Origin: Aquanectria penicillioides
Lineage: Eukaryota > Ascomycota > Sordariomycetes > Hypocreales > Nectriaceae
Assembly: GCA_003415625.1 (NCBI GenBank)
Contig: PYIU01000011.1
Location: 881,001-945,000, forward strand
Reading direction: 5' to 3'
DNA length: 64,000 nt
The position numbers and the translations under genes were made by a program. Below, in pieces: positions 1-62,933 of this stretch (position 1 is its first letter; each line of letters opens with the position of its first letter). The notes beneath the pieces are model-generated. The model saw nothing but the letters and a program-made list of their open reading frames with translations, was not told the origin of the DNA and ran no database searches.

Positions 1-828
1 CTGTAGCACCACCAGCATCCTCTTTACTGCAGTAATTGCCCGATTCATCAAGCATGTACTGTCTTAGGTCTGATGCATAGAATGGCACTAAAATTGTTTG
101 TTAGTGAAGCCTCACAATCAAAATTGTAGTCGGTACATACCTCTGGAACCCTCAACACCCACTGGATTGGAACTTGCTGCGTCTGGATATTCTGCTGCGA
201 TTGATCTTTTTGGCTTCGCTTCTTTTCCCGTCGCTGGGTCAATAACGGCGTCTGTCCATTGTTTCTCTTTGTATTTTTTTAATGTTAGTCGAACAAGTCT
301 CAACCGAATTGATATTTAAGCGAGGGAGACGAACCCTTTACCCAACCGCTGTTGCAATACAGCCGTGGCTTGTTTGTAAACCCGGGCAATGTGTTACCCT
401 GAACAGCTTGCAACTCGCCGATAATATCTATTTTGAAAAGTCAGCCACATTAGCGATGGAGCGTTAAAGAAGGTTTGCAAGGACTATATACTGTGAAGCT
501 CAGCTGTGCTTTCTCCTGCTTTCAACTTAAAAAAGGTCAAGAGGTACTTCTGCGCATCCAGCTGTTCTGCAGCGGTAACAGCTGGCTGGCCATCCATAGA
601 ATTACCATCCGCAGCCAGGATAGCTTGGAAAGCTGTGTCGGAGAGAACTTTTGACTCGTCCCACCAGGTGCTGTAGGCCCAACCTTTACATCCTCCTGCT
701 GTCCTTCCGGCAGATGAGACATCAAAGAACGTATCAACCGACACACCAAACTGGCCAATTTCAGCTGCAAAGGCCTGCGAAAGGGCTCCGATAGCAATGG
801 TATATCTAGTTAGCCAAGACATGGCCAA
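1..828 (-). CDS. Secreted protein of unknown function, 3' end cut by window edge
   Basis: Exons read on the minus strand: 492-828, 342-427, 141-264 and 87 to beyond 1, with GT/AG introns and consistent phases. The N-terminus (MAMSWLTRYTIAIGALSQAFA) is a classical signal peptide, so the product is probably secreted. The mature part has paired cysteines (GGCKGW, LYCNSGW, GNYCSKED) and no visible membrane segment. The spacing of Cys, Trp and Tyr recalls fungal secreted proteins annotated as lysine-specific metallo-endopeptidase-like, but no HExxH zinc motif is seen in the visible part, so this is only a hint. The 342 donor (GTAAAG) is the weakest junction. The gene runs off the left edge. Reading frame and secretion are fairly safe; the function is not recognised. 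Confidence 0.55.
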
Positions 829-17528: not shown

Positions 17529-18185
17529 ATGACGACCTCTTCACAGGCCTTTAATCCCACCGATCCTTCAACGCCCGGCCCCTATGGGCCTTTGGAAACG
17601 GCCCTACTTCTGCTAGACTTTCACTCCCTCTTTGTTGGACCAAATATTGGGGGACCAAATAGTCCAGCAGCTTTGAAAGTCGCCGCGCAGATGAGAACTT
17701 GGGCCAAGTCTCAAGGCATCACCGTCATTCATGGGCTGGTCGATATAGATGCGACTCCATTCCCAACCTGCAAGGATGCTGGGAGGTTCAAGAGCATTGT
17801 GGATGCTATGAATCTAGGAGGTGGAGAGGAGTCTCCCGAATTATCCGAAGGCTCCAGCGAAGACGAGTCCATTTTCAAAAGGATCCCAGGATACGTATCC
17901 GTTCTTGAGTCCCCAGGCCTCAAAGAGTTCTTGCAGGAGAAAGGCATCAAGTCTCTAATTCTGACCGGCCTGAGCACTTCAGGGTGCGTGTTGAGAACTG
18001 CAATCCCGGCAACTGATGCTGAATTTGTCGTGTCTGTACTTTCTGACGGCTGTGCTGATCGAGACGAGGAGGTTCACAAGTTGGTCGTGGAGAGGATTTT
18101 GCCGACAAGGGCGTATGTTTTCACGGCTGCCGAGTTTCGGGAGCAGTATATCAAGTCTAGGGGAAATGATTCGGAACAGAAATGA
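17529..18185 (+). CDS. Isochorismatase-like cysteine hydrolase
   Basis: A single-exon gene of 218 aa. The fold markers of the isochorismatase-like superfamily are visible: a beta strand with the catalytic Asp (ETALLLLDFHSLF, about residue 35), a central strand ending in a short loop, and the catalytic cysteine in LILTGLSTSGCVLRTA (about residue 154), followed by the characteristic DGCADRDEEVH segment. The basic residue expected between Asp and Cys is probably in KRIPGYVSV. Such enzymes hydrolyse amides or vinyl ethers. The substrate cannot be told from sequence. No targeting signal is seen, so it is probably cytosolic. It stands alone, without a pathway context. Confidence 0.8.
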   Translation: MTTSSQAFNPTDPSTPGPYGPLETALLLLDFHSLFVGPNIGGPNSPAALKVAAQMRTWAKSQGITVIHGLVDIDATPFPTCKDAGRFKSIVDAMNLGGGEESPELSEGSSEDESIFKRIPGYVSVLESPGLKEFLQEKGIKSLILTGLSTSGCVLRTAIPATDAEFVVSVLSDGCADRDEEVHKLVVERILPTRAYVFTAAEFREQYIKSRGNDSEQK

Positions 18186-35825: not shown

Positions 35826-38111
35826 GCCGCCTTCGTCTATCCCGTTTGTCGCATCCTGCGCGCACAGAGACTTGTTTGCGTCGCGCATCCTTTTAGCCTT
35901 CTTCACCAGCCTCATAAGCGGCTTCCACAGTTCATCCTGCTGCTGCGCCGCTGAGCCCCAGCAGCCAATTGCCAACTCGAGCGCGTTCCAGGCCTTCTTT
36001 GCAATCTCCGTCTGGTTGGAGCGGGTGCACAGCTCCTCGATGATGATGGAGATTGCGTGCCAGTGGACGTAGGTGCATGGCTGTCGGGCCCAGCGAGGCC
36101 ACCTCCATATTGCGGAAATCTCGTAGGAGCATTCGATGGTCTCAATCGACGTGGCCAGCAAATGGTCCATGGTAGCTGAGGAAAGAGACGGCCTCAGGTC
36201 GGTGGAGAGAACTGGATGGTAGATGAGCAGCGGGGCCTCGGCAAAAAAGAGGCATGTGGTCAAGGCCGTGAAACGTTGGAAAGAGTCGTCTTCGGCGCGA
36301 TTCTCCAAGTAGCCCTCTTCCACTTTGCTCCTGCAAACGGCCACCATCTTCTCCATGTCTGCATGGTCGAGTGCTGGAGACTGCTGCTCGTCGTGCCCGC
36401 GCTCGAGGTGCCCCAGTCTCTTCATCAGCAGTCCAAGCTCATACTTGATCAGGGTCGGCGCCATGTCCGTCATGCCGGTTCTGGAGGGCGGGTACTCCGC
36501 CCCAAGAGGGTCGAGGTCGGAATCGTCAATGTTGAGCGGAAGCACCACGTCCGAGGCCCCCCCTCGGGAATCAAAAAGTCTGTCCCTTGGTCTAGGGCGG
36601 TTCTCAGATCCAGCAGCCACACAGCAAGCCAAAGCCTCAGGCTCATCTCGGTGTTGTAAGGCGACAGCTCGGTGCCTCGGCGGACGCGGTGTATTCCGAG
36701 ACCTTGGGCTATTCGAACGGCCAGGGCTGTCATGGTCCAGGTGAACCGTGACTGGTCGCTTTCACGTAGACAAAACAGGAACAGGACGACTGCTTGCAGA
36801 GTCATCAGGTCCGACGACGACATGTACTCGGCTCGATCAAGCGCTTTCTTTGTAGCAAGGCGATACTGCGCGGACAAGGTCTCTTTGTCTTGGCCGAGAA
36901 GCTCGTGTGCCTATCAAAGTGTCAAGATCTGATGCCCGGAAACATGGTGTAATAATGATAATGATAATAACAAGGCAAGCCTACTTCATTCGGTGTCATG
37001 GACGTCACGGCGGCAAAGTATATCGCAAACATGAGAGCATCTTCGGACGGGGTCAGAGACCGAGTGTTACGTTGGATTTCTCTAATCACTTTGTTCATGG
37101 ACGGGATGTGAAAGATCTTGATGAGAGGGTCGACGTTCTCGACAAAGGTCTGCCAGTAGAAGGGGATCTCCGAGGGAGAAGGGTGAGCGCTGCTGGCAAT
37201 GTCGACAGGCTGGTGGTTACCATTGAGGGCAAAGGCGTCATATTCGATGTTGGTTGGAGTTGTCTGCTGCAGACGGTCCACCGAGTGGGTTTCACCGTGT
37301 TCCGAAGCGAGTTCCATGTCTTCGTCCTCGACATCGCCTGGGACAGACCCTGGGGCTTCTGCAAGCTACATTGGCGTTAGTAGGATAGCACATGGCAAGG
37401 AACCAAGACTAGTAGCAGCAGCAGCAACAAGGCTCGGCAAAGAAGTGGAGATTTATCGCGTACCAGCCTTGTCATTCTTGCCAAGCACGAAGCATAAACA
37501 TCACCCCCGTTGTCTCTGGATGCAGCCGACGGAAGTCCAATCTGATAAAGAGGCTTCGGCGGCCTCTCTCCGAAGTACAGGCAGCGCTCTATCCACTGCT
37601 CTTTACAGGATGCGGCCTCGTTGAACTCCCGAATGGAATGGGCTTTCGGGGACGCGGCCGATCCATCGTTTACTCCGGGCGTGTTCGTGTTCACTGCAAG
37701 TCTTGCACGTCTACCAATGGTCTCGGAGGCGCTGTCCTGCACACGCAGGAGCCGTGGCAGAGGCTGCGAGCCGAACTGTGAGCCGAACTGTGAGCCTTGC
37801 AGGTCCCTTCTAGTCACAGACGATTGTTCAGCTTCGGATCGACGGCCGCCGCGAGGCGTTGGGCGAGCCCGTCCGGGAGGCGGGAAGACGCACACGGCGC
37901 CATTCTTGACACAGTTGGAGCACGGGGTTTCTTTATTGCATTTGACCTTTCGACGCCGACAAATCACGCAAGATCGCAGGTTGGCTTTGGGGCCGCTGGG
38001 GCCGCTAGGGCCGCTGTAGGCGGTATCGAGAGACTGCTGGTTTGAGGCGACGACGCTGGGACTCGACGCGAGGCTGAGGAGGAATTCGGAATTCGGAGGA
38101 GGTGAGGGCAT
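35631..38111 (-). CDS. Zn2Cys6 transcription factor with fungal-specific domain and apparent frameshift
   Basis: Minus-strand exons 37464-38111, 36985-37365 and 35631-36910; about 769 aa if one base is restored. The zinc cluster (about residues 48-74) has C-x2-C-x6-C-x5-C-x2-C-x6-C spacing with RRRKVK. The fungal-specific transcription factor domain covers about 230-600, with LMFAIYFAAVTSMTP, LGIHRVRRGTELSPYNTEMS and RLWLAVWLLDLRTALDQGTD. At a run of seven G (36557-36563) the frame breaks: family proteins read on to LPLNIDDSDLDP, which here lies one frame over, so one G seems to be missing. A GS-repeat (CCTGAG units, about 35798-35825) lies near the C-terminus. No pathway genes are adjacent. 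The break is either an assembly slip at a homopolymer or an inactivating change. Confidence 0.7.
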
Positions 38112-47599: not shown

Positions 47600-48592
47600 C
47601 GGGATGGTGGGCACCGCTTTTTCACGACGACTGTGTTAGAAGCTGGAGTGAAAAAAAAATAAGTGCCCCGTTCCCCCTCTTTGTTAAAGTAAATTGACAG
47701 ATATCCCAGGAGGGTGTTTCTGCCGGGTGATGAGTCTGAGTGATGGGCGTCATGCATGCCAGCAGTGGAGGTGGTGTTGTAGCATGTAGCTCTTGTAATA
47801 GCTGTGCTGTTCTGTTTAACAAGGTTCTCGCAAGCCGTCGTAGTCGCCGTGATTTTTTGCTTGGAATCGTAACTATCCTATCATCGTACATGCCAAGATT
47901 CAAAATCCCGTTCCTATCTGCCACCAGAGTCCTCGGTATGATTGTCACGTGACCGAGGCTTACCCAACCCTGGACTACTTATCCATCTTCACCATGAAGT
48001 GGCTGCCTCCCCTGGTGGAAGCCAACAATTTTGCCGATATTTTTTCAAACCCCATAGTTGGGCAACTCTCGCCATGATATAGTAAGAAGGAAGTGACGCA
48101 GAGTATGCAAACCCAAGACTCGCAACTCCCATGATGCCAATCTCCACCAAACTGAGGGGTCTGAAGACTTCTCCACCGAGCAATATGAGAATCCGTTGGC
48201 CTACATGTTAGCTGAGATGGAGATATCAAGACTAGTCGTCAACTCAAATCCATTTACCAATGACGCAATCCCACTTATGGGCGGAGGCCAAGTCAATGAG
48301 GGGCGACATCATCCCATTGTCAACAGCCTCATTTCTACCGAGCCCTTCGCAAAATGTGGATGCATGCCCCACTCAAAGGGCGTATGGTGAACACAGCGCA
48401 CAGTAATCACATGATTGATAGGCGTTCCTTTCGGACCTATTAATTCTTTGGCTTCTCTTCGGGATGACCGGGGTGAGCCCAAGATATGTCTCCGATTTAT
48501 CTTCGATTGACTACTCTATTTAAACCCAGTAGGCTCCTCTTTAGTATCACTCATCATCGTCACGAAAAATCTGGCCGGTCCAAATTCGCATC
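47600..48592. other. Intergenic with TATA-like box
   Basis: TATTTAAA at 48517-48524 lies about 75 bp before the 48593 start. Minus-strand frames at 47975-48229 are hydrophobic but have no recognisable family. A two-copy CGG direct repeat with 9-bp spacing (48460 and 48469) is present but its spacer differs from the cluster motif. Confidence 0.4.
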
Positions 48593-49688
48593 ATGAGCAC
48601 CGCAACTCCATCCCCAGTCTCTAAAACGCACCACGTGATAGTAGCTGTCGAGAACTTCTTCCTCCCAACACCCAAGTTCAATTTGCCGGCACCTCACACC
48701 TATGAACTCAAGGAGTACCAGTTAACGAGTCAAGATCAACTTGCCGAGCGCATCAAGGACGCAGAAATTGTCATTATAAATCGGATCCCACTTGGGCCAG
48801 ATGTGCTGTCCGAGGAGGTGACCCCAAATCTGCGCATGATCTCCGTGATTGCTTCAGGGACGGACTCAGTAAATCTCGAAGCGTGCAGAAGGCGAGGAAT
48901 CATCGTCACAAATTGCCCGCAATGCAACACTTCAACGGTGGCAGAACATGCCGTTGGGTTGTACTTTTCCGTGCGGAGAAGCATTCCTCTCACTCATCGA
49001 CTGACCCAGGCTGATGAATGGCCAAAGCGCGGGTTGGTGATGACGACTGTCCTGAATAGTCCAAATGGCAATGCGCCGCGCACATGTTCCAATGAAGTTG
49101 TTGGAATTTTGGGAAATGGTGCTCTAGGTATGGAAACACTGTTCCAAGGAGAACGGGCAATGCCTCGTCTTTGAAACCTGTGACTAACAATGGGATCATA
49201 AAGGCAAGACAATTGCGACTCTGGCAAAGGCTCTGGGAATGAAGGTCATCGTCTCCTCTCGCAAGGGACAAGCGCCATCCGAGGGCCGCGCTTCGTTTGT
49301 TGAGGTTATCCGCACGGCGACCGTCATTTTCCTGTCTCTTCCCAAATTACCCGATACGTTGAACCTCATTTCAACACCAGAGTTCAAACAAATGCAGAAG
49401 GACTGCATTCTAATCAATGTTTCTCGGGGCGGCACCGTTGACGAAGAGGCCCTTGTGCAGGCACTAGAGAATCGCGATATTGCCGGCGCGGCGACAGATG
49501 TCTACGTACACGAGCCCGTGAGAAACGAGACCAGCCCGTTGATCGGGCCTAGGGTGCAGAACTTGAATCTCGTCACTACCCCTCACTGTGCTTGGTGTTC
49601 TGAAGAAGCCAATGGCAACTTTCTGGAAATGTTGGACGCCAACATCAGTGGTTGGTTGGTGGGAAGCCCCGTTAATGTCGTCAGTTAG
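48593..49688 (+). CDS. D-isomer-specific 2-hydroxyacid dehydrogenase
   Basis: Exons 48593-49127 and 49204-49688; 339 aa. The 76-bp intron interrupts the dinucleotide-binding motif, and splicing restores GILGNGALGKTIATLAKALG (GxGxxG). Catalytic residues of the family are visible: Arg in LINVSRGGTVDEEAL, Glu in TDVYVHEPVR and His in VTTPHCAWCSEEA. The N-terminal half (VIASGTDSVNLEACRRRGI, NTSTVAEHAVGLYFSVRRS) forms the substrate domain. It should reduce a 2-keto acid to the D-2-hydroxy acid, or the reverse, with NAD(P)H. The substrate is not evident. No targeting signal is seen. It lies 4 kb from the keto-acid decarboxylase cluster, but its promoter lacks that cluster's triple CGG element. Confidence 0.88.
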
Positions 49689-51517: not shown

Positions 51518-53266
51518 TTAAGTGAGGTAGCGGAACTTCGGGTGCTTGTCTCCCAGCATCGTAACATCAAGTTGCTCGTGGTCCTCCACAGGCCCAAACT
51601 CTCTATCTCTTCTCCGGTTTTCATGAGCAAGCTTAAAGTGTAGCCCGAGGGATAGAATTGTAATTGCAAAGGTGAGAGCACAACCGGTGGCACAGCCTTT
51701 GACGAAATACGGACTGTTGTTTGTTAGCTACGCGCCACAAGTTCTCAGGATTGAATACTCACGCGTCTGTTTTGGGGTACAAGGTGCTGCTCAAGAAAGA
51801 ACTGCACTGGCCTAGAATCGCAATGACCGCCAGACCAATACCACGCTTTGTGTCACCTCCCTGGTTGTTAAGAAGCCAAGTAATGTTGAGAGTTAGGCAA
51901 GGGAAAATGCCCATGACTGCGAACCATATTCCCAGGTATCGAATGTTACTCTTCCCACTGTCTTCGACAATGGCAAGAAGCAAATACCCAATAGCGGCCA
52001 TGGTTGAGCAAATAGCGATCACGAAGCCCCGATGACCGAATCTATCAGAGAAAAAAGCTGCAGCAATACACAAAATGAAAGCTGCTGCGTATGGTGGCGC
52101 ACTGAGGCCCTGCGCTTTGATGCTGCTGTACCCAAGATTTTGCACGATCGTCGGGAGGAAGTTGGCCAGACCGGCAAACGAGTAGTTGCAACAGAAGTGA
52201 ATCAGTGCATGAACGTACGGCTGATAATCACCAAGGCCAGCCATGAACTGCTTCCAGTTGAGCTTAGTCTTTGCAGTGGTGTCCTTAGTACCAAGGCGAG
52301 CTACAGAAGCCTCCTTCTCCTCTTCGTTCAAGAACTTGGAAGTCTGGGGCGAGTCGGGTAAAAAGAAGAAGACAAAAGGGGCAATGAGAATTGTTGGGGC
52401 ACCCTCTAAGAGATGTAGTTAGTTTATTTGTCTGATGACCTTCAAGTTACATGAATCTTGGTCTTACCAATCAGAAGAATGAGTCTCCATGGCTCAAATG
52501 ATCCACGAATCTGCGTTATTCCATATGCTAGTGAGGCGGCAAAACAGTTCGCAAGTGGGGACATTCCAATGAGGATTGAGACTCGGAGACCAAGCTCTCG
52601 ACGCTTATAGAACAGTGACAAGTAATATGGAGCACCTGCACCAAATGCGGCCTCCAATATGCCCAGTGCTGCTCGACAAGCGCAAAGGCCGGCAAAATTC
52701 TTGACGACTCCGGTGCATGTCGCAACGACTCCCCATCTGCGAGTCGTTAGCGTGATGCTTTTTGAAATGTTTGAATGATTGCGTTTTACATACAAGACGC
52801 AAAGACCAGCAATGTACGAGTGAGCTGGAAGCAATTTCCAAAGCAGAGTGGTCCATTCGAACAATGTGTAACAGATATAGAAGGAGTTCAAGACCCACGC
52901 CCACTACCCAGTTTCAGTGAATATCAAGGAATTTTGATTTGGCATCGCTTCAAACCTGAGAGTCGCTCAAGTGCAGATCATCTTGGGCACCGGCTGTTTT
53001 GGCGTTGCCAATATTCCCACGATCGAGATATGACAGAATGTATACGACGCATACCAGTGGAAGCATATGGCGGTCAATCTGACAAGAGGATGATGTTAGC
53101 ATTAACAACAATCATAGAGATGAGGGGCGAATATCATGTTTACCTTGGTTCTGACGATGGTCTCCATTTTTCGAGACACGGTCACGATAATGTCTTGTGG
53201 CTTTTCTGCATCATTGACTTCGGCGTGATGAACCGCCGCCTTGTCTGCAACCTCGAGGTCCGTCAT
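51518..53266 (-). CDS. MFS carrier, anion:cation symporter (allantoate permease) family
   Basis: Six exons on the minus strand: 53144-53266, 52956-53078, 52794-52903, 52468-52736, 51763-52405 and 51518-51713; 487 aa, all phases consistent. Text typical of the ACS family is seen: DRHMLPLVCVVYILSYLDRG in helix 1, LDRGNIGNAKTAG, then LGILEAAFGAGAPYYLSLFY, and YVHALIHFCCNYSFAGLANF opening the second half. Twelve hydrophobic helices can be placed. Family members import organic anions such as allantoate, nicotinate, pantothenate or tartrate with protons. A TATATAAA box lies 107 bp upstream (53373-53381), and a triple CGG element at 53675 suggests control by the neighbouring Zn2Cys6 regulator. The substrate is probably the carboxylic acid handled by the cluster. 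Confidence 0.88.
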
Positions 53267-53674: not shown

Positions 53675-53695
53675 CGGAAATTTCGGGAATTTCGG
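53675..53695. promoter_or_regulatory. Triple CGG direct repeat, putative cluster operator
   Basis: CGG triplets start at 53675, 53684 and 53693 (exact 9-bp period) with spacers AAATTT and GAATTT. It lies about 410 bp upstream of the MFS carrier start. A further degenerate unit (CGG then AAAATT) lies at about 53729. The same architecture occurs at 57321 and 60122. Direct repeats of CGG are typical sites of Zn2Cys6 proteins. Confidence 0.6.
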
Positions 53696-53699
53696 ACAG

Positions 53700-54895
53700 C
53701 CCAAAAATTCCGTCGACGTTTGGCCACCCGGAAAATTCAAACCAGAGAACACGGCATTGCCAGAAGGCGACCAATGACCTAGCTCATGGCGGAGCAATAC
53801 AATTCGGCTGGTGACTTAACAGGCAGAGCAATGGGAGCCAGGTTACTAGGCTGCTCCGATCGGAAACCGGGGAATCTCAAAAGCTTCCGTTCGGCGCTGG
53901 CTGGTTGGTTTGCCGAGTCTTGCGGAACGCTCATCAGCCATGAATAAGATCATCACTTACAGGGGTAAGAAGCGGCAATCCTGAGATAGAAATTCAACGT
54001 TGCCCCAGGATTCTCATTGTACTGTCGTTGTGACAAACTTGTGTTGGCAGGATCGCGTCAACAGCTTCATTTTCGAACTCAAACATGAGTGATAATTGTT
54101 GAGACAATGTTGGTTATCATCGCAGCCCATTCGCTTCTAGTTGAAAGGGCCATTTTTGATGGGAAAATGTCAGAAGGGACATCGAGGTGTGGAACAATGA
54201 TGAGCGGGAGGGTTGTGAGGAACGAGAGCATGCACACAAACCATGTCTCCCGTTATTATCCCCACTAATAATCTATTTTGAGCACGTCAACAGCACGGCC
54301 TTGAATCAAGGAACGGCAAGGTTAAATTCGTTGAACCTGGAATCTAATGAAATTTAAGATGAGAGTGTTGAAGCAACACTGAACCTGGAATCTAATGAAA
54401 TTTAAGATGAGAGTGTTGAAGCAGCACTGAACCTGCAATAATGGTGCTTTTTCCTTGGTCCTCTGATTCTTGTAAACAGTTTCAAAATCCCCAACTCGGC
54501 GACCATCAGTCGCTCTCCAACCAATCGGAGGATGCGAAAGCGATTGCTCGCCGAATTGATCCTTTATCTTGAGGTGGCTGCTGATAGCTCGCTAAGTCTC
54601 GTCCAAGCCTGCTTTGGGACAGGAATAGCGCTCTCACTGATTGGATGGAGTCCTCATCTTGCAATAGATCAGGGACCTTGTAGGGGGCATCGGGCCACAC
54701 TGCCACCAATGATCGCCGACTTGGAAAACATCTCTGAATCCTTCTATGATGGCGATGGCACCTTGCAGACTGTACGTGGCCAAGGCTGCGCACTGCAAAA
54801 TTCAGGAGTATGAAGCGACTCTGAATAAATAGAGAGCATCGCCAGTGGACTTGTGGAATGGAAGAAACCGCCACGACAACAACCCATCGTTTCTC
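53700..54895. other. Intergenic between MFS carrier and secreted protein
   Basis: Apart from the degenerate CGG unit and the 48-bp tandem duplication, only overlapping small frames are seen. Confidence 0.4.
54332..54435. repeat. 48-bp tandem duplication
   Basis: A 48-bp unit beginning TGAACCTGGAATC occurs at 54332 and again at 54380 with one visible difference, and the start of a third copy is at 54428. It is non-coding. Confidence 0.9.
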
Positions 54896-55792
54896 ATGAA
54901 TCTTCCCATGGCGCCCTCCAAGTTCATACCGCTTCTGGCAGCCCTGGCCTCTCAGCTCGTCGCAGTCGATGCTCTTCCTCAATTCTGTCGAGCTATTAAT
55001 CCTGCGCCCCAGGGACTAGTCTGTGGGCAAAAAGGCTACATCACCGATCCCAGCGGTTGGCCAGCAACAAACGTGGCGACCTTTGCAGAATGTGCCAATT
55101 CTTGCGATGAAATATGCAGGAACTTTCACTGGGTGCCGGCGACGAACGAATGCCAACTGTTTTATCGCTACTTTGACGCCTTGGGATTCTCCGCAAATAA
55201 TGCGGCGCCCGCGGAGTGGTATCAAAAAGAGTGTTTTGAGTGCTCTAGTAAGTTTTGCAACCACGAATCTTGCCGTCATCCGTCGCTTTGACTAATCGAT
55301 TCCATCCATTTAGCCAACGTAGTCCTTGACCTAAGCTTCTCGCCTGCCACGGATCTCAATGACTGGACTTTGTCGTCGGACGTGGATTACGATTTCTTCT
55401 TCGACGTCCAGAATCTCGGACAAGTGAGGGGTCTTAGAATTCTCGAGGCGACGACAACCGGAGAAGTCAGAATGAAATACAACCATGGAGTTCAACTCGA
55501 TGCTGGCGTTACCTATCGGCTATCGTTCCTTGCTGCTAGTGCTACCGGCTCGGCCATCAAAACCGATCCCGATTTTACCCTGATGACCTTTTACATGGCT
55601 ACCAACGGCGAAGTATTAGATGAATATACTCCGGTGAACGGCGCATGGCAAGGAAACTGGTACAGGTTTACCCACGATTTCACGCCTCGACAGGGAGACG
55701 AAGGAGTGGCCACGCTATATTTCACTATTCAGGCAAGTGGCTTGAGTTTGGATTGGTATATAAACTACATTGGCCTCCAGATCCCAGAGTAG
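54896..55792 (+). CDS. Secreted protein: cysteine-rich N-terminal module plus beta-sandwich (CBM-like)
   Basis: Exons 54896-55247 and 55314-55792; 276 aa. A signal peptide follows the start (MNLPMAPSKFIPLLAALASQ); a second ATG at 54908 is also possible. Residues about 25-115 contain eight or more cysteines, with AECANSCDEICRNFHWVPAT and NECQLFYRYFD, which resembles a PAN/apple-like adhesive module. The C-terminal 155 residues read as a jelly-roll: a DWTLSSDVDYDFFFD start, LDAGVTYRLSFLAASAT and GNWYRFTHDFTPRQG, ending LSLDWYINYIGLQIPE, as in carbohydrate-binding domains appended to fungal enzymes. No catalytic domain is seen. It may bind polysaccharide at the wall or host surface. It sits inside the cluster interval but lacks the triple CGG element nearby, so membership is doubtful. 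Confidence 0.75.
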
Positions 55793-56044
55793 TCTGAAAG
55801 CTTTCGCAAAGGGTAGAGTTTGGAGGATGGCGTTTTTCCAAACGGCGACTAGTAAGGATAAAGAATCCCCAAGATCGATGGCTTCCTTGGCAACATGTAC
55901 CTCTTGGCGCTCCTTCTGTCCACATTAGGACATTGTGTTAACTGTTTTGTCTTCTTGCTTCCCTAACCGATGGCGCAGGAAGAAGCGTTATACTTCTTGT
56001 AAAAAAAAAAAAGTTCAATTAATCATTGATTTATACATAGATAA

Positions 56045-57073
56045 TTAGACTGCCTGCTTTTGGGCATACTTTTCAGACAGAGCCCAGTATTCCTGGAATC
56101 CTACCGCCGTACACACATCTCCAAACGGCATAATGGTGGGAGGGACCTGTTCCTTGTGGTTCAAGGCCGAAAGAGATGACCTGATAGCTTTGATACCAGC
56201 TGCAAGAATTGTTAATGGGTAGGCGACACTGCAATAACCCATTGCAGCGAGCTCGTTATATGATAGGGCAGGAGTCTTGCCATCCTCGATAACGTTAATG
56301 AATAGAGGAATGTCAGGGCCCAAGTCTTGGCGCGATTGTTTCATTTCATCAATAGAAGTAATCGCTTCGATAACGACAGCATCTGCTCCTTTGGCATAAA
56401 ACGCTTTTGCTCGTCTAACGGCTTCCTCATATGAGATAATGTGGGCATCTGTGCGGGCAAGGATAAAGATGTCAGTTCCCTCATTACGTGAGGCGACTGC
56501 AGCGCGAATCCTTGAGACGGCATCTTCAAAGCTGACAACCTTCTTATCTTTGGTATGACCGCACCCTGAAAATTCATCACGTATATCAGCGCCTTACTTT
56601 CAATTTGGGGTTTGGAGTTGGAACTTACGCTTCGGGCTAACTTGATCCTCAATCATGATACCCGCAGCACCGGCCTTTGCATAGCCCTGAACTGTGCGCC
56701 AGACGTTTACTTCATTTCCGTATCCGGTATCTCCATCAACCATAACTGGGACGTCGACAACTCGGCAAACTTCAACAGTTCGATTGACCATTTCGGCGAA
56801 CCCGAGGTATCCAGCATCTGCGAGTCCGTGAGAGGCGCTAACGGCATAGCCTCCCAAAAAGACCATAGGAAAACCGGCTTCTTCAACGAGACGTGCAGTT
56901 AAGCCATCCCAGGCAATTGGATGCTGGACAATTGTGGAAGAATCCAAGTGGGCATCAAGCATCATTTGGCGGAGGCGACTGGCTGACTCGTTCCGCTTAG
57001 CACCGCGCTCAAGGGGGTACGGGTACCGAGAGTTGGCGCCCTTAAGATTTGCGATCAACTCAGAAGACGGCAT
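56045..57073 (-). CDS. Isocitrate lyase/PEP mutase superfamily C-C lyase
   Basis: Exons 56629-57073 and 56045-56565 on the minus strand; 321 aa. The start at 57073 (MPSSELIANLKGANSRYPYP) is preferred over upstream frame extension, which is low-complexity. Superfamily motifs are clear: VFLGGYAVSASHG, VPVMVDGDTGYGNEVNV (Mg2+-binding Asp), IMIEDQVSPK joined by splicing to RCGHTKDKKVVS (the KRCGH motif with catalytic Cys) and FILARTDAHI. The Cys identifies a lyase (2-methylisocitrate lyase, dimethylmalate lyase or oxaloacetase type) rather than a phosphoenolpyruvate mutase. It should split a 2-hydroxy or 2-keto dicarboxylic acid and release a short keto acid or oxalate. No peroxisomal signal is seen at the C-terminus (QKQAV). 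It is transcribed divergently from the decarboxylase across 560 bp holding a triple CGG element. Confidence 0.88.
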
Positions 57074-57320
57074 TTTGAAGATGGTCTGTTGCTGAATATT
57101 TTGTCTTTTTGAATATGCTTTGCTTTTAAGTTGCTGAGTTGCAGGATAACACCAAGAGTTGCTGGGAAGACACTGATAGTTAAACAAGAGATATGAAACT
57201 TAGAATCAAGTTCGGAAAGATCGGAATAATTTCCAGAGATAAGCATCATTGGATTTTCCTATCCGGCAATGGAAATGAAACAATGTTGGCACATGTATCG
57301 ACTCGTTGCGGGGGATGTGG

Positions 57321-57341
57321 CGGAGAATTCGGAAAATTCGG
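57321..57341. promoter_or_regulatory. Triple CGG direct repeat in the divergent lyase/decarboxylase promoter
   Basis: CGG triplets start at 57321, 57330 and 57339 (exact 9-bp period) with spacers AGAATT and AAAATT. The element lies about 250 bp from the lyase start and about 290 bp from the decarboxylase start, so one site could serve both genes. Confidence 0.6.
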
Positions 57342-57633
57342 GCTGTCGTATGGGGATTGCCGGGCGCTTCGGGAGTGCGTCACGCCTGGTCAGTTGTGAT
57401 TCGATACCTCGTCCCTCCCCCCTCTTTGGATTGTAGTGATGGGTAGTTTTATGAAGCCGGCTGAGTCAATATCGCCCTCGGAACTCGTTCCTGACATGAC
57501 CGAGAGTATAGTGAACGTCTTCGGAACTAAACTTGTGATAAAAGCCACTAAATTGTCTCATCTTCCATGTTGAACCCACTACCCTGAATTTCATCTCAGC
57601 CTTCTACCGCTACCTGTTTGACAATACGCCAAA

Positions 57634-59821
57634 ATGCCGACTGCAGAAGGCACACAGATCCCATTATCTCTCTACCTTTGGAGAAGGTATGTTATTCATG
57701 GAACTCGGTCCCCATTTCTGCCACGTTGGTGGTCTAATCCTTGCAACTTGCACTAGGATCCGGCAATTGGGAACCCGTAGTGTCATGGGGGTCCCAGGTG
57801 ACATGAACCTGGAACTCCTAGACTACCTTGACGAGGTTGATGGACTTAAATGGGGTACCTAAGCTCCTACGCTACTTCCTGTCACTGTGATGGCTAATGC
57901 AACTTCAAGTTGGAAATGCAAATGAACTGAATGCCGCCTATGCTGCTGATGGATACGCCCGGGTCAAAGGAAGCCCTGGCGCTGGTAAGTTCCTGAAATG
58001 GACATCATTATCTGGGTTTGACTAACGCGACCCGTTTTAGTCGTAACAACCATGGGTGTTGGAGAACTTAGTGCCTTGAATGGTATTGCAGGCGCATATA
58101 CTGAACAAGTCAAGATAATCCACATTGTTGGAACAACTCCGACCCATGTTCAGGCCAAGCGCCTCATGATACACCATAATCTGGGACCAGATCCAGACCA
58201 TAAAGTGAGGCATTTGATACGAAAATGTGGACAATGCTGACCACGGTCAAGGTGTTTGAGAAAATATCTATCAATGTACGGTGTGCACATGCCTGGCTCG
58301 AGGATCAAGCCACCGCCACTGCTGAAGTTGATGTTGGTTCATCTTGAATTCTGACGACTTGGCACTTGGCTAATACCTTGGTGTAGCGGGTTATTAGAGA
58401 GTGCATGGTGCAGTCTCTTCCAGTCTATATCTTTGTTCCCATGGACTTTGTCCATACTCTTGTCTCGGCATCACCTCTTCGCACACCAATCGATGTTAGC
58501 CCTCAAGTGGATTTAGAAAACGAAAAGGTTGCCCTCTCCAAGGCAGTTGAAGCCATCCAAGCAGCTCAGAGGCCCGCTGTGCTTGTTGATTGCCTTGCAG
58601 ATCGCCACAATGCCGTAGAAGAGACGAGAAAACTAGTTGATCTTCTACAGTTCCCAGTTTTCTCAACATCCATGGGCAAGACAATCATCGGCGAAACTCA
58701 CCCCGCCTACTGTGGGATTTACAACGGAGAGGTTTCGTACCCCGGCATTAAAAATGCAGTAGAGCAGAGTGATTGCATCTTGAATATTGGGCCTCTCCTC
58801 GCCGATAGCAATACTGGAGGCCACACACGAGAAATTCGACCAGAACAGGTTATTTTGGTTGAGCCAAGCTCATGCACGGTAAGCTACAATGCATCCCCGG
58901 TACCTCCATAGACCGATCCGATGGCACTGACAGGAACGCGATAGATCTTCGGAACCAAGTACAGCAACGTGTATTTGAAACCATGTGTGTAATCAACTTC
59001 GCAATTGCTTCTTTCTTGTCGTTTACTTACCTGAATAGTCTTGCAAAAGCTTCTGGACGAACTGATCGGTACGGCGACCCCAACGGTACAGCTACCAGAC
59101 ATCCCAAGTCAACCTGAGCCACTTGATTCAGACTCAAAGAATATTGTCCAATCCTGGATTTGGAAACGGTTGGGAAATTTCACACGACCTGGGGACGTTC
59201 TTCTGGCAGAATCCGGCACAGCGCAGTTCGGGTTCCCAGATGCGACGTTTCCTACTGGCGTCAAATATTTGACACAGGTATACTATGGCAGCATCGGTTA
59301 TTCTGTCGGTTCATGTCTGGGCGCTTCAATTGCCCAGAGAGAATTATATGAAGAGAATGGCCAAAAAGGGCGGACTATCCTTGTCGTTGGCGACGGTAGC
59401 TTGCAGCTCACGGTCCAGGAGGTTGGGACAATGATCCGGCTGGGACTTGACCCGATAATGTAAGTGGCCTTGAACGCCCTCCTGTGGTCTTCAGTTCCTG
59501 ACAAGAATTAGAATTGTGATCAACAACAAAGGGTATACCATTGAACGGGCCATCCATGGGCCTCAGGCAGGCTACAACGACATCGCATCTTGGAGACACC
59601 AAGAAATGCTGAATTTCTTTGGTGCCTCGTCTCCTGCAGAATCGAGCAAGCAGGTCAGAACAAAGGAGGAAATGGAAGCAGTCTTGGCTCTAGATACATA
59701 CCAGTCTCCACCAAGCATTCAGTTGCTTGAAGTTCATATGGACGTTCTGGATATTCCTTGGCGACTGCGAACTCAGATTTCGATCGTCAATGCCAGAGCA
59801 AAGAGCACAAAGATGCAGTAG
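57634..59821 (+). CDS. ThDP-dependent 2-keto acid decarboxylase (pyruvate decarboxylase-like)
   Basis: Nine exons: 57634-57686, 57757-57854, 57910-57984, 58041-58204, 58252-58332, 58387-58878, 58945-58984, 59039-59459 and 59512-59821; 577 aa, every junction phase-consistent. Active-site landmarks of pyruvate decarboxylases are present. They are Asp in [13 protein letters not shown], Glu in [20 protein letters not shown], the His-His pair in RLMIHHNLG, the ThDP/Mg2+ motif GDGSLQLT completed by NNKGYTIE, and the second catalytic Glu in [10 protein letters not shown]. Length fits the family (about 560-600 aa). It should decarboxylate pyruvate, phenylpyruvate or another 2-keto acid to the aldehyde in the cytosol. 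Substrate-pocket residues are too divergent to decide by eye. As the divergent neighbour of a C-C lyase it probably acts on that enzyme's keto-acid product. Confidence 0.9.
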
Positions 59822-60093
59822 ACTGGAGGAGTGTAGATAATGCAACCAAAGAGATATAGAATCTGTTAGAAACTTCAAAATCTGCTTCAAAATGATAGCT
59901 GCCGAGGATGTGTTGTATGTCGTGATAAACTATGCACACTCCATAATCATCAAGGAAAAAGTTAGCCGTCTCCTCACGGTCCCCTATCAAGCGCCTTGTG
60001 ATTCAGCAGATGGAGAAAACCAAGCCCTGCTATTCCAAAAGAGGTCATCTAGTCTCCGATGTGGAGGTGGCTTGCTGGAGATTGTTGCGTTGG

Positions 60094-60102
60094 TATATAA
60101 AA
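60094..60102 (+). promoter_or_regulatory. TATA box of the cluster regulator
   Basis: TATATAAAA lies 77 bp upstream of the ATG at 60171 and 20 bp upstream of the triple CGG (CCG) element. Confidence 0.55.
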
Positions 60103-60121
60103 TCTCCACGGACCCCGCACT

Positions 60122-60142
60122 CCGAATCTTCCGAAATTCCCG
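60122..60142. promoter_or_regulatory. Triple CGG element (opposite orientation) in the regulator's own leader
   Basis: Read as CCG at 60122, 60131 and 60140 (exact 9-bp period) with spacers AATCTT and AAATTC. On the minus strand this is CGG-N6-CGG-N6-CGG with spacers GAATTT and AAGATT. It shares GAATTT with the element at 53675. Its position between TATA box and start codon suggests autoregulation, possibly repression. Confidence 0.6.
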
Positions 60143-60170: not shown

Positions 60171-62933
60171 ATGTCGGCGTCTCGCTCGCCATACGACGGG
60201 CCTGCTGCAGAATTGAGCCCCGAAAATCCCAGAGGGATAACTCAAAGTCGATCCTACAAGGCTTGCTCTGCCTGTCGCACAAGAAAGATCCGCTGCATTG
60301 TGGAGGACAGATCCGACGGGAGTATCTGTCAACAATGCCGAAAGTAAGGCATCGTCCACCAATTTCTTGGATTGAATCGTGCTGAAAGTCAACTTGTAGA
60401 GATGGCTCGCGCTGCCTATTTGAGGCCAAGAGGCGGACCTACGATATTAGTAGCCGCATTCGAAAGGCCCAGCAGAAGCGAGCGAGGTTAACCGTCCCAC
60501 ATGAACCCGAATCCCCAGAAGGCTCTGTGAGTACTCATCGGCCCCGAGACTGTACTTTTTGTCCTTATTCATTTTAAAGAATGACAGACAGGAAGAGTTT
60601 GGCGTTAGGAGTTCCGCAGATGCCCTCTTATTCCTATCAGACGCGGCGGCGAGACATCGCAACACTACAACATCTTCTCCAAGCGCCAGTCACATAACCT
60701 CACAACCGGCCAATCTTTCCCCACAGACAACATTCGCAGCAACTGGAGACCAAAGTGTTCCTTTGAGTTCTATACCTGTCGGCAATGTTAATACCGAATC
60801 ACAGGACCTTCTCGAATCCGCCGATTCACCGTGGAGTACACGAGATATCCAAGAGAAAGTCTCGATCTTTCATTGCAGATTATTTTGGGAAAGCATTGTC
60901 TTACCTCATGAAGCCTTGGCATTTGTTTTCTTTTTCTTCACGAAGCTCTATAGTATCTTTCCTTTTGTCCCTCATGAATACTACATATGCGCTACCAGCA
61001 AGGAGCCAGATATCGAATCGATACGCCTTCTGTTTGAAGAAGATGAGATACTTCTTGGTTGCATAATTGCAGTTTCTAGTCGTTATTATCACTTGCCAGG
61101 AAATGCGATTGGCGGATATGAGAGAAGTTGCGAGATTCATAACAGGTGTTGGAACTGGACCAGAGGCCAAATGTCTCGGGTGCTTTTCGAAGGCAGCAGA
61201 CCTAGAAACCTTCTCTCATTTATCGAGTCTCTATTGATGCTTGCAGAATGGTTGCCCAAGTCGATTCATGCCTTGGTAGAGGACGTCGAACATGGCCGTC
61301 AAGTTCCCGGCGGGGCATTGCGGACATCCAAGCATTTCATCAATGAACAGATTCTGCAGCCTGCTTTCCGGACAGATCACGTCGCGTGGTAAGTTTTGCA
61401 ATATCTGCCTTTATGCAGCTTCCTACTAAACAAGCTAGGTCATACGTTGGCAACGCATTTCTTCTCTTGCGATCTTTGCCTCCGGATCGACGCACCTGTC
61501 CAATTCTTAAAACCTCGAACCGATATCTCATCACTCTGTTTAGCTGCCTCATTATGTCTCAATCTCTTGCTCGCCGACTAGGACGCCCTCCTCTTATGAG
61601 TTTTGACGATGTAAATATGACACAGATTGCATCTGCCTTCGGCGATCGAAACAAAAGCATCTTGGGACAAGGAGCCGACTCTCTCATTTGTCACGACCTG
61701 AGCTTGGGTCTTTCTGAACAATTTCATGAAGCTTTTGTAGAGATTTTGAAACTGCTAGGGCGAGCTCACGAAGTTCTCCATCCGCCAATAATGGATGGTA
61801 TTGTGGAATCCAAGAGACAGGCCCAAGACGCGAGTCCACAATTAATCACCCTCATGCAACATTTTGACAATTTGAATGGGGCATGGAAAGCAAAATATTC
61901 CCATTTGACTGAAAGTAAGATGCTCCCCGAATCGGTGAGGCTAAATCCAAATAGCAGCTAATGAAACGATAGCTACAACTGTTGGCATGTTGAGCTTCTC
62001 TAAGCATATGCTGCGTGTCGATTTCGAGTATCTTCGACTCTACGAGTTTTCAACTAGTCTCGGCGCGTGCCTGAGACACGGAGAGGATGGACTCGCTTCT
62101 GCGTCTCTCTCTGGTCGAAGTAACGCATTTCAACAGAGTGCTGATGGAAAGTTTTCCCCTTCATCCCCTGCATACTATCTGGAGCAAGCAATTGAGGCCG
62201 CCGAGATGCTTCTCCGCCTGTTGCTTGGGTTTCAGTTAACAAAGGCGGAGAAAGCATTGCGATATGCTAGCGCCAGGCACTATATGAAGATTGTTTTCGC
62301 TGCTGTTTTCCTCATTCAGGTATATCCACCCACGCGAAAAGTAGTGTCGGGTTGCTAATCGGTCTAAAATAGGTCATGAGAGCTGGGATCCCGAGTGCAG
62401 AGTATCAAGAAATCTTGACGGCCACGCTAAAGGAGACCGTCTCCACCTTAGAAGGCTGCAGTATCGACGCTGCACATCCTGCATTTCGCTACGCCATCCT
62501 CCTCCGAGGTTTGATGAGCGAAACCCAACGGAGCCAGAAGTCTGTTCCGGTGGCCCCGTTCTCCCTGACCATTAGCCCCAAGGAAGGACGCCGATACCAT
62601 CCGACTCTCCATGTTGCGAACAAGAATAATGGAAACTGTGATCAAAATGAAGAGGATGATGACATGAGGTTTGATTTGCTCGCTATGGATTTGACCAGAC
62701 TTTCTAACACCGATGATAGTCAATCTCAATTAGAACCAAGTACATCTCAAACTTTAGGGACAGGGACTGTGCAGTGGCAACAATACAACACAGGTGATGA
62801 TGCTAGATTGGCCCCGGAGACAACAAATTGGCTAGGTGGAAATGAATTTGTTACAGGATGGGAGGATTCTGTCGCTCTTTTAGATGACGATGCGTTTTTA
62901 CAGTCCCTTATCGGCGTGGATTTGTTCAATTGA
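60171..62933 (+). CDS. Zn2Cys6 transcription factor, likely regulator of the cluster
   Basis: Six exons: 60171-60343, 60400-60526, 60580-61388, 61439-61914, 61973-62319 and 62373-62933; 830 aa, all phases consistent. The first intron splits the zinc cluster. Splicing gives C-x2-C-x6-C, a longer loop (IVEDRSDGSI), then C-x2-C-x6-C at about residues 32-65, with basic TRKIR. A Ser/Thr-rich linker follows. The fungal-specific regulatory domain covers about 130-600 (HCRLFWESIVLPHEALAF, EDEILLGCIIAVSSRYYHLP, then the SYVGNAFLLLRSLPPDRRT region). The acidic C-terminus (NEEDDDM, DSVALLDDDAFLQSL) looks like an activation domain, and SLIGVDLFN ends the protein. It probably binds the triple CGG elements at 53675, 57321 and 60122, controlling carrier, lyase, decarboxylase and itself. 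That link is inferred from motif sharing. Confidence 0.88.

Follow-up and report, generated by a model that had tools for sequence, protein, structure and literature searches.

Zn2Cys6 proteins have a CGG half-site in common, and what lets each of them recognize its own targets has long been asked, mostly with two half-sites in mind. The Hap1 site is a CGG-N6-CGG direct repeat with TA in the spacer. The sites described for Aro80, in the portions of the sources available (PMC7947893 among them), are serial CCG repeats, four in number and with 7-bp gaps. According to the same portions, in Saccharomyces cerevisiae such a site is present in ARO80's own promoter besides those of ARO9 and ARO10 (PMC7947893), and binding is constitutive, while aromatic amino acids activate (two papers, including PMC7947893). 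Since the serial row is common to the promoters of the decarboxylase and of the regulator itself in this system, we consider it an Aro80 trait. For TerR, from the terrein cluster of Aspergillus terreus, the available passages of PMC4360782 describe binding to one CGG mostly as a monomer, recruitment of a second monomer to a CGG five bases further along, and a favorable effect of a T before the CGG. An excerpt of PMC12719309 lists CGG direct repeats for AcuK/AcuM and AOD2/AOD5 (two half-sites, 7 bp) and the Candida CARbox of Cwt1/Zcf11, with three CGG triplets 22 and 31 bp apart. Here we analyze a row of three CGG triplets that recurs in a 64,000-nucleotide stretch of Aquanectria penicillioides DNA (the window, C3:881001-945000 of a 53.76-Mb, 13-contig genome), in which the genes are intron-bearing and of fungal type. 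The rows accompany a cluster of genes for a carrier, a lyase, a decarboxylase, and a Zn2Cys6 regulator (Table 1).

The triple CGG is a real, cluster-specific element, and its form with RRRWTT spacers (R, purine; W, A or T) is unique in this genome. Its three copies, sites 1 to 3, lie ahead of the carrier, between the lyase and the decarboxylase, and in the leader of the regulator. They had been placed there by an earlier sequence-only reading, which also had their coordinates, strands, and spacers right, including the GAATTT common to sites 1 and 3. The gap is 6 bp in 6/6 cases, every row has a 9-bp period, and all six spacers follow RRRWTT (AAATTT, GAATTT, AGAATT, AAAATT, GAATTT, and AAGATT), with TT preceding each of the six CGGs that come after a spacer. 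By eye, the outer flanks break the RRRWTT rule, so the constraint seems confined to the gaps between half-sites, an impression drawn from three sites. In all three rows the triplets read CCG in the direction of the gene for the carrier, the lyase, and the regulator, and CGG for the decarboxylase.

Table 1. Coordinates of the CGG rows, associated promoter features, and cluster genes (window positions, except for the last line)
Feature	Position	Strand	Sequence or product	Remarks
Site 1	53675..53695	+	CGG-AAATTT-CGG-GAATTT-CGG	409 bp from carrier ATG
Site 2	57321..57341	+	CGG-AGAATT-CGG-AAAATT-CGG	common lyase/decarboxylase promoter; lyase ATG at 248 bp, decarboxylase ATG at 293 bp
Site 3	60122..60142	-	CGG-GAATTT-CGG-AAGATT-CGG	29 bp before regulator ATG; 28 bp from first base of TATATAAAA
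TATA-like box of regulator gene	60094..60102	+	TATATAAAA	by eye
Additional CGG-N6-CGG pair	57213..57224	+	CGGAAAGATCGG	between site 2 and lyase
Carrier	51518..53266	-	MFS (PF07690), 487 amino acids	6 exons spliced by eye; ATG 53266; stop by counting
Lyase	56045..57073	-	isocitrate lyase/phosphoenolpyruvate (PEP) mutase superfamily, 321 amino acids	2 exons; ATG 57073
Decarboxylase	57634..59821	+	thiamine diphosphate (ThDP)-dependent 2-oxoacid decarboxylase, pyruvate decarboxylase family, 577 amino acids	9 exons spliced by eye
Regulator	60171..62933	+	Zn2Cys6 protein, divergent Aro80 relative by sequence, 830 amino acids	6 exons spliced by eye
Paralogous cluster	C1:2299142-2308537		Aro80-type regulator, MFS carrier, lyase	

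The significance of the element rests on the spacer, since the bare pattern is common: CGGN6CGGN6CGG has 1,103 matches in the genome (reversed control, 2,245), a density at which 9.7 trios within 6.5 kb are expected genome-wide, and it was dropped as a genome-wide marker. With W required at five of the six spacer positions there is one match, site 1 (control, one); this form misses sites 2 and 3, in each of which a G interrupts a spacer. Requiring W at the three final positions of the spacer gives 14 matches, among them sites 1 to 3 (reversed control, 14), with 1.6e-5 trios within 6.5 kb expected. The consensus CGGRRRWTTCGGRRRWTTCGG, that is CGG(RRRWTT-CGG)2, is matched three times without mismatch (sites 1 to 3), never with one mismatch, and 19 times with two (reversed control, 30 matches up to two mismatches). 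Both of these last forms overstate the significance somewhat, as RRRWTT was derived from the same three sites and the last-three-W form was picked after seeing them. The earlier claim that three such sets are very unlikely by chance thus stands for the RRRWTT form, but not for the bare pattern. The genome scan proposed with it, in which a common motif would count against the element, gave a mixed answer, the bare motif being common and the last-three-W form being restricted to those 14 places.

We regard it as highly improbable that chance, or neutral copying of a short sequence, produced sites 1 to 3. The abundance of the bare N6 pattern and of its N7 version (437 matches to CGG-N7-CGG-N7-CGG; reversed control, 1,341) would speak for such an origin, but three of the 14 last-three-W matches in the genome fall within 6.5 kb, all three of them in promoters. 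In addition, each of the three promoter intervals has one exact N6 triple against 0.010, 0.000, and 0.000 expected (300 shuffles each), and the flanks differ, so the sites are not copied blocks. None of the 11 remaining spacings between 3 and 14 gave an exact triple in these intervals. The 9-bp period, being in phase with codons, may account for the excess of N6 over N7 triples genome-wide. A search for Aro80 targets with the A/T form of the N7 triple gave five matches (control, 10).

Within the window there are four exact CGGN6CGGN6CGG matches against 0.34 expected, a number reached in none of 100 shuffles. The fourth (37993-38013, minus strand) has G/C-rich spacers, overlaps open frames on both strands, and is probably unrelated to the cluster. 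Pairs of the form CGGRRRWTTCGG occur 146 times in the genome, six of them inside sites 1 to 3, without a clear excess over the reversed control (121), so that no wider regulon is claimed. The CGGRRRWTTCGGRRRWTTCGG-type element, as a tag unique in this genome, can be used for seeking the regulon in related fungi. An isolated CGG-N6-CGG pair with an all-A/T spacer (CGGATAATTCGG) was also seen at 17836-17847 on the minus strand.

On one side of each row there is, in register, a triplet one mismatch away from CGG (CAG, GGG, and GGG); its presence in 3/3 window rows has a chance probability of about 2% and would be weakly consistent with the four repeats of Aro80. These triplets bear on the question of whether the functional site is an ordinary CGG-N6-CGG direct repeat bound by a dimer, with the third CGG as a second register, a serious possibility though not a probable one. 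It is raised by a passage on Aro80 binding a CCG pair, within the part of the literature available, and by N4 rows in a C1 promoter (see below), and it gains from the extra N6 pair at 57213 and from the two triplets, 7 bp apart, that AcuK/AcuM use in the excerpt cited above. Nevertheless, all three promoters carry exactly three perfect CGGs, though pairs are far commoner (the 146 CGGRRRWTTCGG matches against three triples), the available accounts of Aro80 sites give four repeats, and the in-register triplets extend each row further.

We think it likely, judging from sequence, that the Zn2Cys6 regulator encoded in the cluster binds sites 1 to 3 and that carrier, lyase, decarboxylase, and regulator form one regulon; the element is probably a shared cis element of the cluster, read by this protein. 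Each site would consist of three or more CGG half-sites arranged head to tail every 9 bp, with spacers that are rich in A/T and pass from purines to pyrimidines. To judge from the row itself, Aro80, and TerR, such a site would be occupied by several adjacent DNA-binding domains and not by a single symmetric dimer. Sites 1 and 2 are at distances from the ATGs that would suit an activator (Table 1), from which we infer activation. Site 3 is placed between the TATA box and the ATG of the regulator, about where transcription should begin, so the bound regulator probably limits its own synthesis, the sign of this autorepression being read from position only.

The locus resembles the Aro80 system in that the promoters of enzymes and regulator carry direct CCG/CGG repeats in series, here in 3/3 promoter intervals, and in that a 2-oxoacid decarboxylase is among the genes with such promoters (for Aro80, the phenylpyruvate decarboxylase ARO10, a target gene). 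It differs in the spacer, 6 bp in 6/6 gaps and not 7, the value found in the C1 regulator promoter described below, and in having three perfect repeats plus a one-mismatch triplet on one side per row where Aro80 has four. The partners, an MFS carrier and an isocitrate-lyase-type lyase, are also different, and the Aro80 orthologue of this genome is another gene, on C12, which is much closer to Aro80. TerR is likewise a cluster-specific Zn2Cys6 protein, and its preferred T before CGG is found here in 6/6 post-spacer CGGs, but its spacer is 5 bp with two half-sites per motif, and the likeness is by site only. AcuK/AcuM, AOD2/AOD5, and the CARbox share CGG direct repeats and differ in spacing and in the genes controlled. 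Hap1 has exactly the same 6-bp spacer but two half-sites, and its DNA-binding domain matches that of the regulator weakly (E value, 0.35-0.83). The triple CGG is a new spacing variant of an Aro80-type serial site, not a new principle. The three-fold repeat had at first been taken to suggest an unusual binding mode. The word fits the 6-bp step, different from the 7 bp of Aro80, but not serial half-sites as such, already known for Aro80 and TerR. A literature search for the lyase/decarboxylase cluster returned nothing pertinent among the matches listed, and the available parts of PMC5082525, PMC10169451, and PMC9245043 held nothing decisive.

By sequence, the regulator is a divergent Aro80 relative, the comparison being with Aro80-type proteins of filamentous fungi and not with the yeast sequence. 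A database search that scored the 7,998 candidates sharing most words gave 19 relatives, of which 14 were close (47 to 60% identity); the best of the five distant ones was a "Transcriptional activator ARO80" of Colletotrichum chlorophyti (E value, 4e-19). In a profile-profile comparison with hhalign, the 14 close relatives (the window regulator itself not being among the rows) matched three of the five distant proteins, all Aro80-type, with 99.8% probability and an E value of 6e-28 over 489 columns. The match spans family columns 160-688, outside the DNA-binding domain. When the Fusarium lateritium relative was used as a genome query, the only four matches beyond residue 120 and outside its own locus were Aro80-like loci (C13:366013, C1:2301754, C1:2300681, and C12:1028249). 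The Aro80-type Zn2Cys6 motif R-x-Y-x-A-C-x2-C-R-x-R-K-x-R-C is present in the regulator, and R27, Y29, A31, C32, C35, R36, R38, K39, R41, C42, C53, C56, and C63 are invariant across an alignment of seven sequences that includes three Aro80-type ones. Against the PDB, the DNA-binding domain had only weak matches, to Gal4, Hap1/CYP1, and Leu3 (E values, 0.27-0.83).

That the window regulator is the Aro80 orthologue of this genome was ruled out, as it has 26% identity to the Colletotrichum ARO80 protein and the C12 gene (C12:1025956-1029102) is far closer, with 76, 83, and 78% over residues 331-1044 and 49-58% before. Further Aro80-like genes were seen at C13:366 kb and C2:242 kb. The existence of several such genes (C12, C1, C13, and C2), together with a half-site preference common across the family, leaves room for a different Zn2Cys6 protein, for example the C12 orthologue, as the reader of sites 1 to 3. 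We find this quite unlikely, since within this genome the perfect element is confined to the cluster, as would suit a local regulator dedicated to it, and site 3 sits in the leader of the cluster's own regulator. Around the C13 and C2 genes, whose promoters were not delimited, the scan found no exact CGG triple.

Relatives of the lyase, the decarboxylase, and the regulator travel together in part of the fungi, as seen when database relatives of the three proteins were sought (partner lists with E value thresholds of 1e-90 and 1e-190). The three relatives have successive gene numbers in Fusarium decemcellulare (NM208_g1620, g1621, and g1622) and all on contigs of equal reported size in Dactylonectria macrodidyma. 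Contigs of equal reported size also carry the regulator and lyase relatives in Thelonectria olida and the regulator and decarboxylase relatives in Zopfia rhizophila and F. falciforme. Thus, 5/14 close regulator relatives are co-located with lyase and/or decarboxylase relatives.

A paralogous cluster was found on C1 (Table 1), where a decarboxylase match was sought and none found. It contains the closest paralogue of the lyase in the genome (C1:2306003-2307037, ATG 2305883; 58, 52, and 49% in three pieces) and, beside it, an MFS gene that by eye resembles the window carrier. Its regulator, a protein pieced together by eye, aligned pairwise to Colletotrichum ARO80 with an E value of 5e-85 and to the window regulator with 5e-28. 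In an unrooted tree, a split with 100/100 support parts the close relatives of the window regulator from Aro80 together with the long-branched C1 regulator; without a root and with this long branch, the tree was not used for placing the C1 regulator. In the promoter of the C1 regulator (ATG 2303046, by eye from sequence), an exact CGG-N7-CGG-N7-CGG, CGGAAAGTCGCGGATGATGGCGG, lies at 2303157-2303179, directly behind a TATAAAT box and reading CCG in the direction of the gene; 0.007 such triples were expected from 300 shuffles and 0.004 from genome density. The order of a TATA box followed by a CCG triple in the gene's direction is therefore common to the window and C1 regulators, with N6 in one and N7 in the other, and the C1 row also has an in-register one-mismatch triplet (CTG).

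Several points weigh against a dedicated regulator and a serial code of this kind. In the regulator, Zn_clus scores 19.3 bits, just under the Pfam cut-off of 21. For 9/14 of its close relatives no partner on a same-sized contig appeared among the matches listed, and the reported contigs differ in size in F. beomiforme (regulator and lyase) and in F. lateritium (regulator and a 58% decarboxylase). About 1.45 kb upstream of the C12 Aro80 orthologue contain no exact CGG triple at N4-13; the one-mismatch rows over these spacings number six there, one of them N7. On C1, the spacers of the array contain G/C, and the carrier/lyase promoter has no exact row and no N6 row at one mismatch. Its two N7 rows are imperfect only, at one mismatch (0.07 expected), and it also holds three overlapping one-mismatch N4 rows (0.09 expected). 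In the C1 regulator promoter there is also one row with one mismatch at each of N6, N8, and N13 (0.13-0.15 expected in each case).

With these reservations, the step appears to be 10 bp in the C1 cluster and 9 bp in the window cluster, the C1 side resting mainly on one exact row, and what appears to be new is that two paralogous clusters of a single genome differ in this way. The different periods may insulate the two clusters. A more specific scenario, tentative and on balance unlikely, is that after duplication of a regulator-carrier-lyase cluster both regulators kept the half-site and the head-to-tail row following the TATA box of their own gene, while the step of one changed from 10 to 9 bp. 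The period would then be an address preventing cross-activation of the sister regulons, and if three or four domains bound in series, altering the step by a single base would be decisive. With this natural pair, what row length and step contribute can be put to a direct test; the evidence is thinner for the 10-bp side.

As for the enzymes, the lyase has PEP_mutase and ICL Pfam domains, and its best solved relatives are 4iqd, the 2,3-dimethylmalate lyase 3fa3, the petal death protein, and oxaloacetate acetylhydrolase. Given these relatives and the KRCGH stretch of 3fa3, which it shares, the enzyme is more probably a C-C lyase than a PEP mutase. The decarboxylase has the three domains of ThDP enzymes and matches a branched-chain 2-oxoacid decarboxylase and pyruvate decarboxylase 1qpb equally well, with 488 bits in both cases. 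A plausible pathway would take up an organic anion, cleave it to a 2-oxoacid, and decarboxylate this to an aldehyde. In the 911-bp promoter of the pyruvate decarboxylase paralogue on C9, N6 and N7 triples with up to one mismatch were sought and none found; the rows seen there are a single exact N9 triple, whose spacers are G/C-rich, and a single N8 triple at one mismatch.

Between the carrier and the lyase, a plus-strand gene at ~54830-55792, judged by eye, starts like a signal peptide and is rich in cysteine in its first half; a Pfam search of its two open frames gave no match. Adjoining the carrier, a D-isomer-specific 2-hydroxyacid dehydrogenase (48545-49688, plus strand) is possibly part of the pathway; in its nearest upstream CGG-N6-CGG pair (48460), 3/6 spacer bases are A/T. 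The intergenic region upstream of the carrier contains a tandem duplication at 54332-54439, with a 48-bp unit in 2.2 copies and 96% matches.

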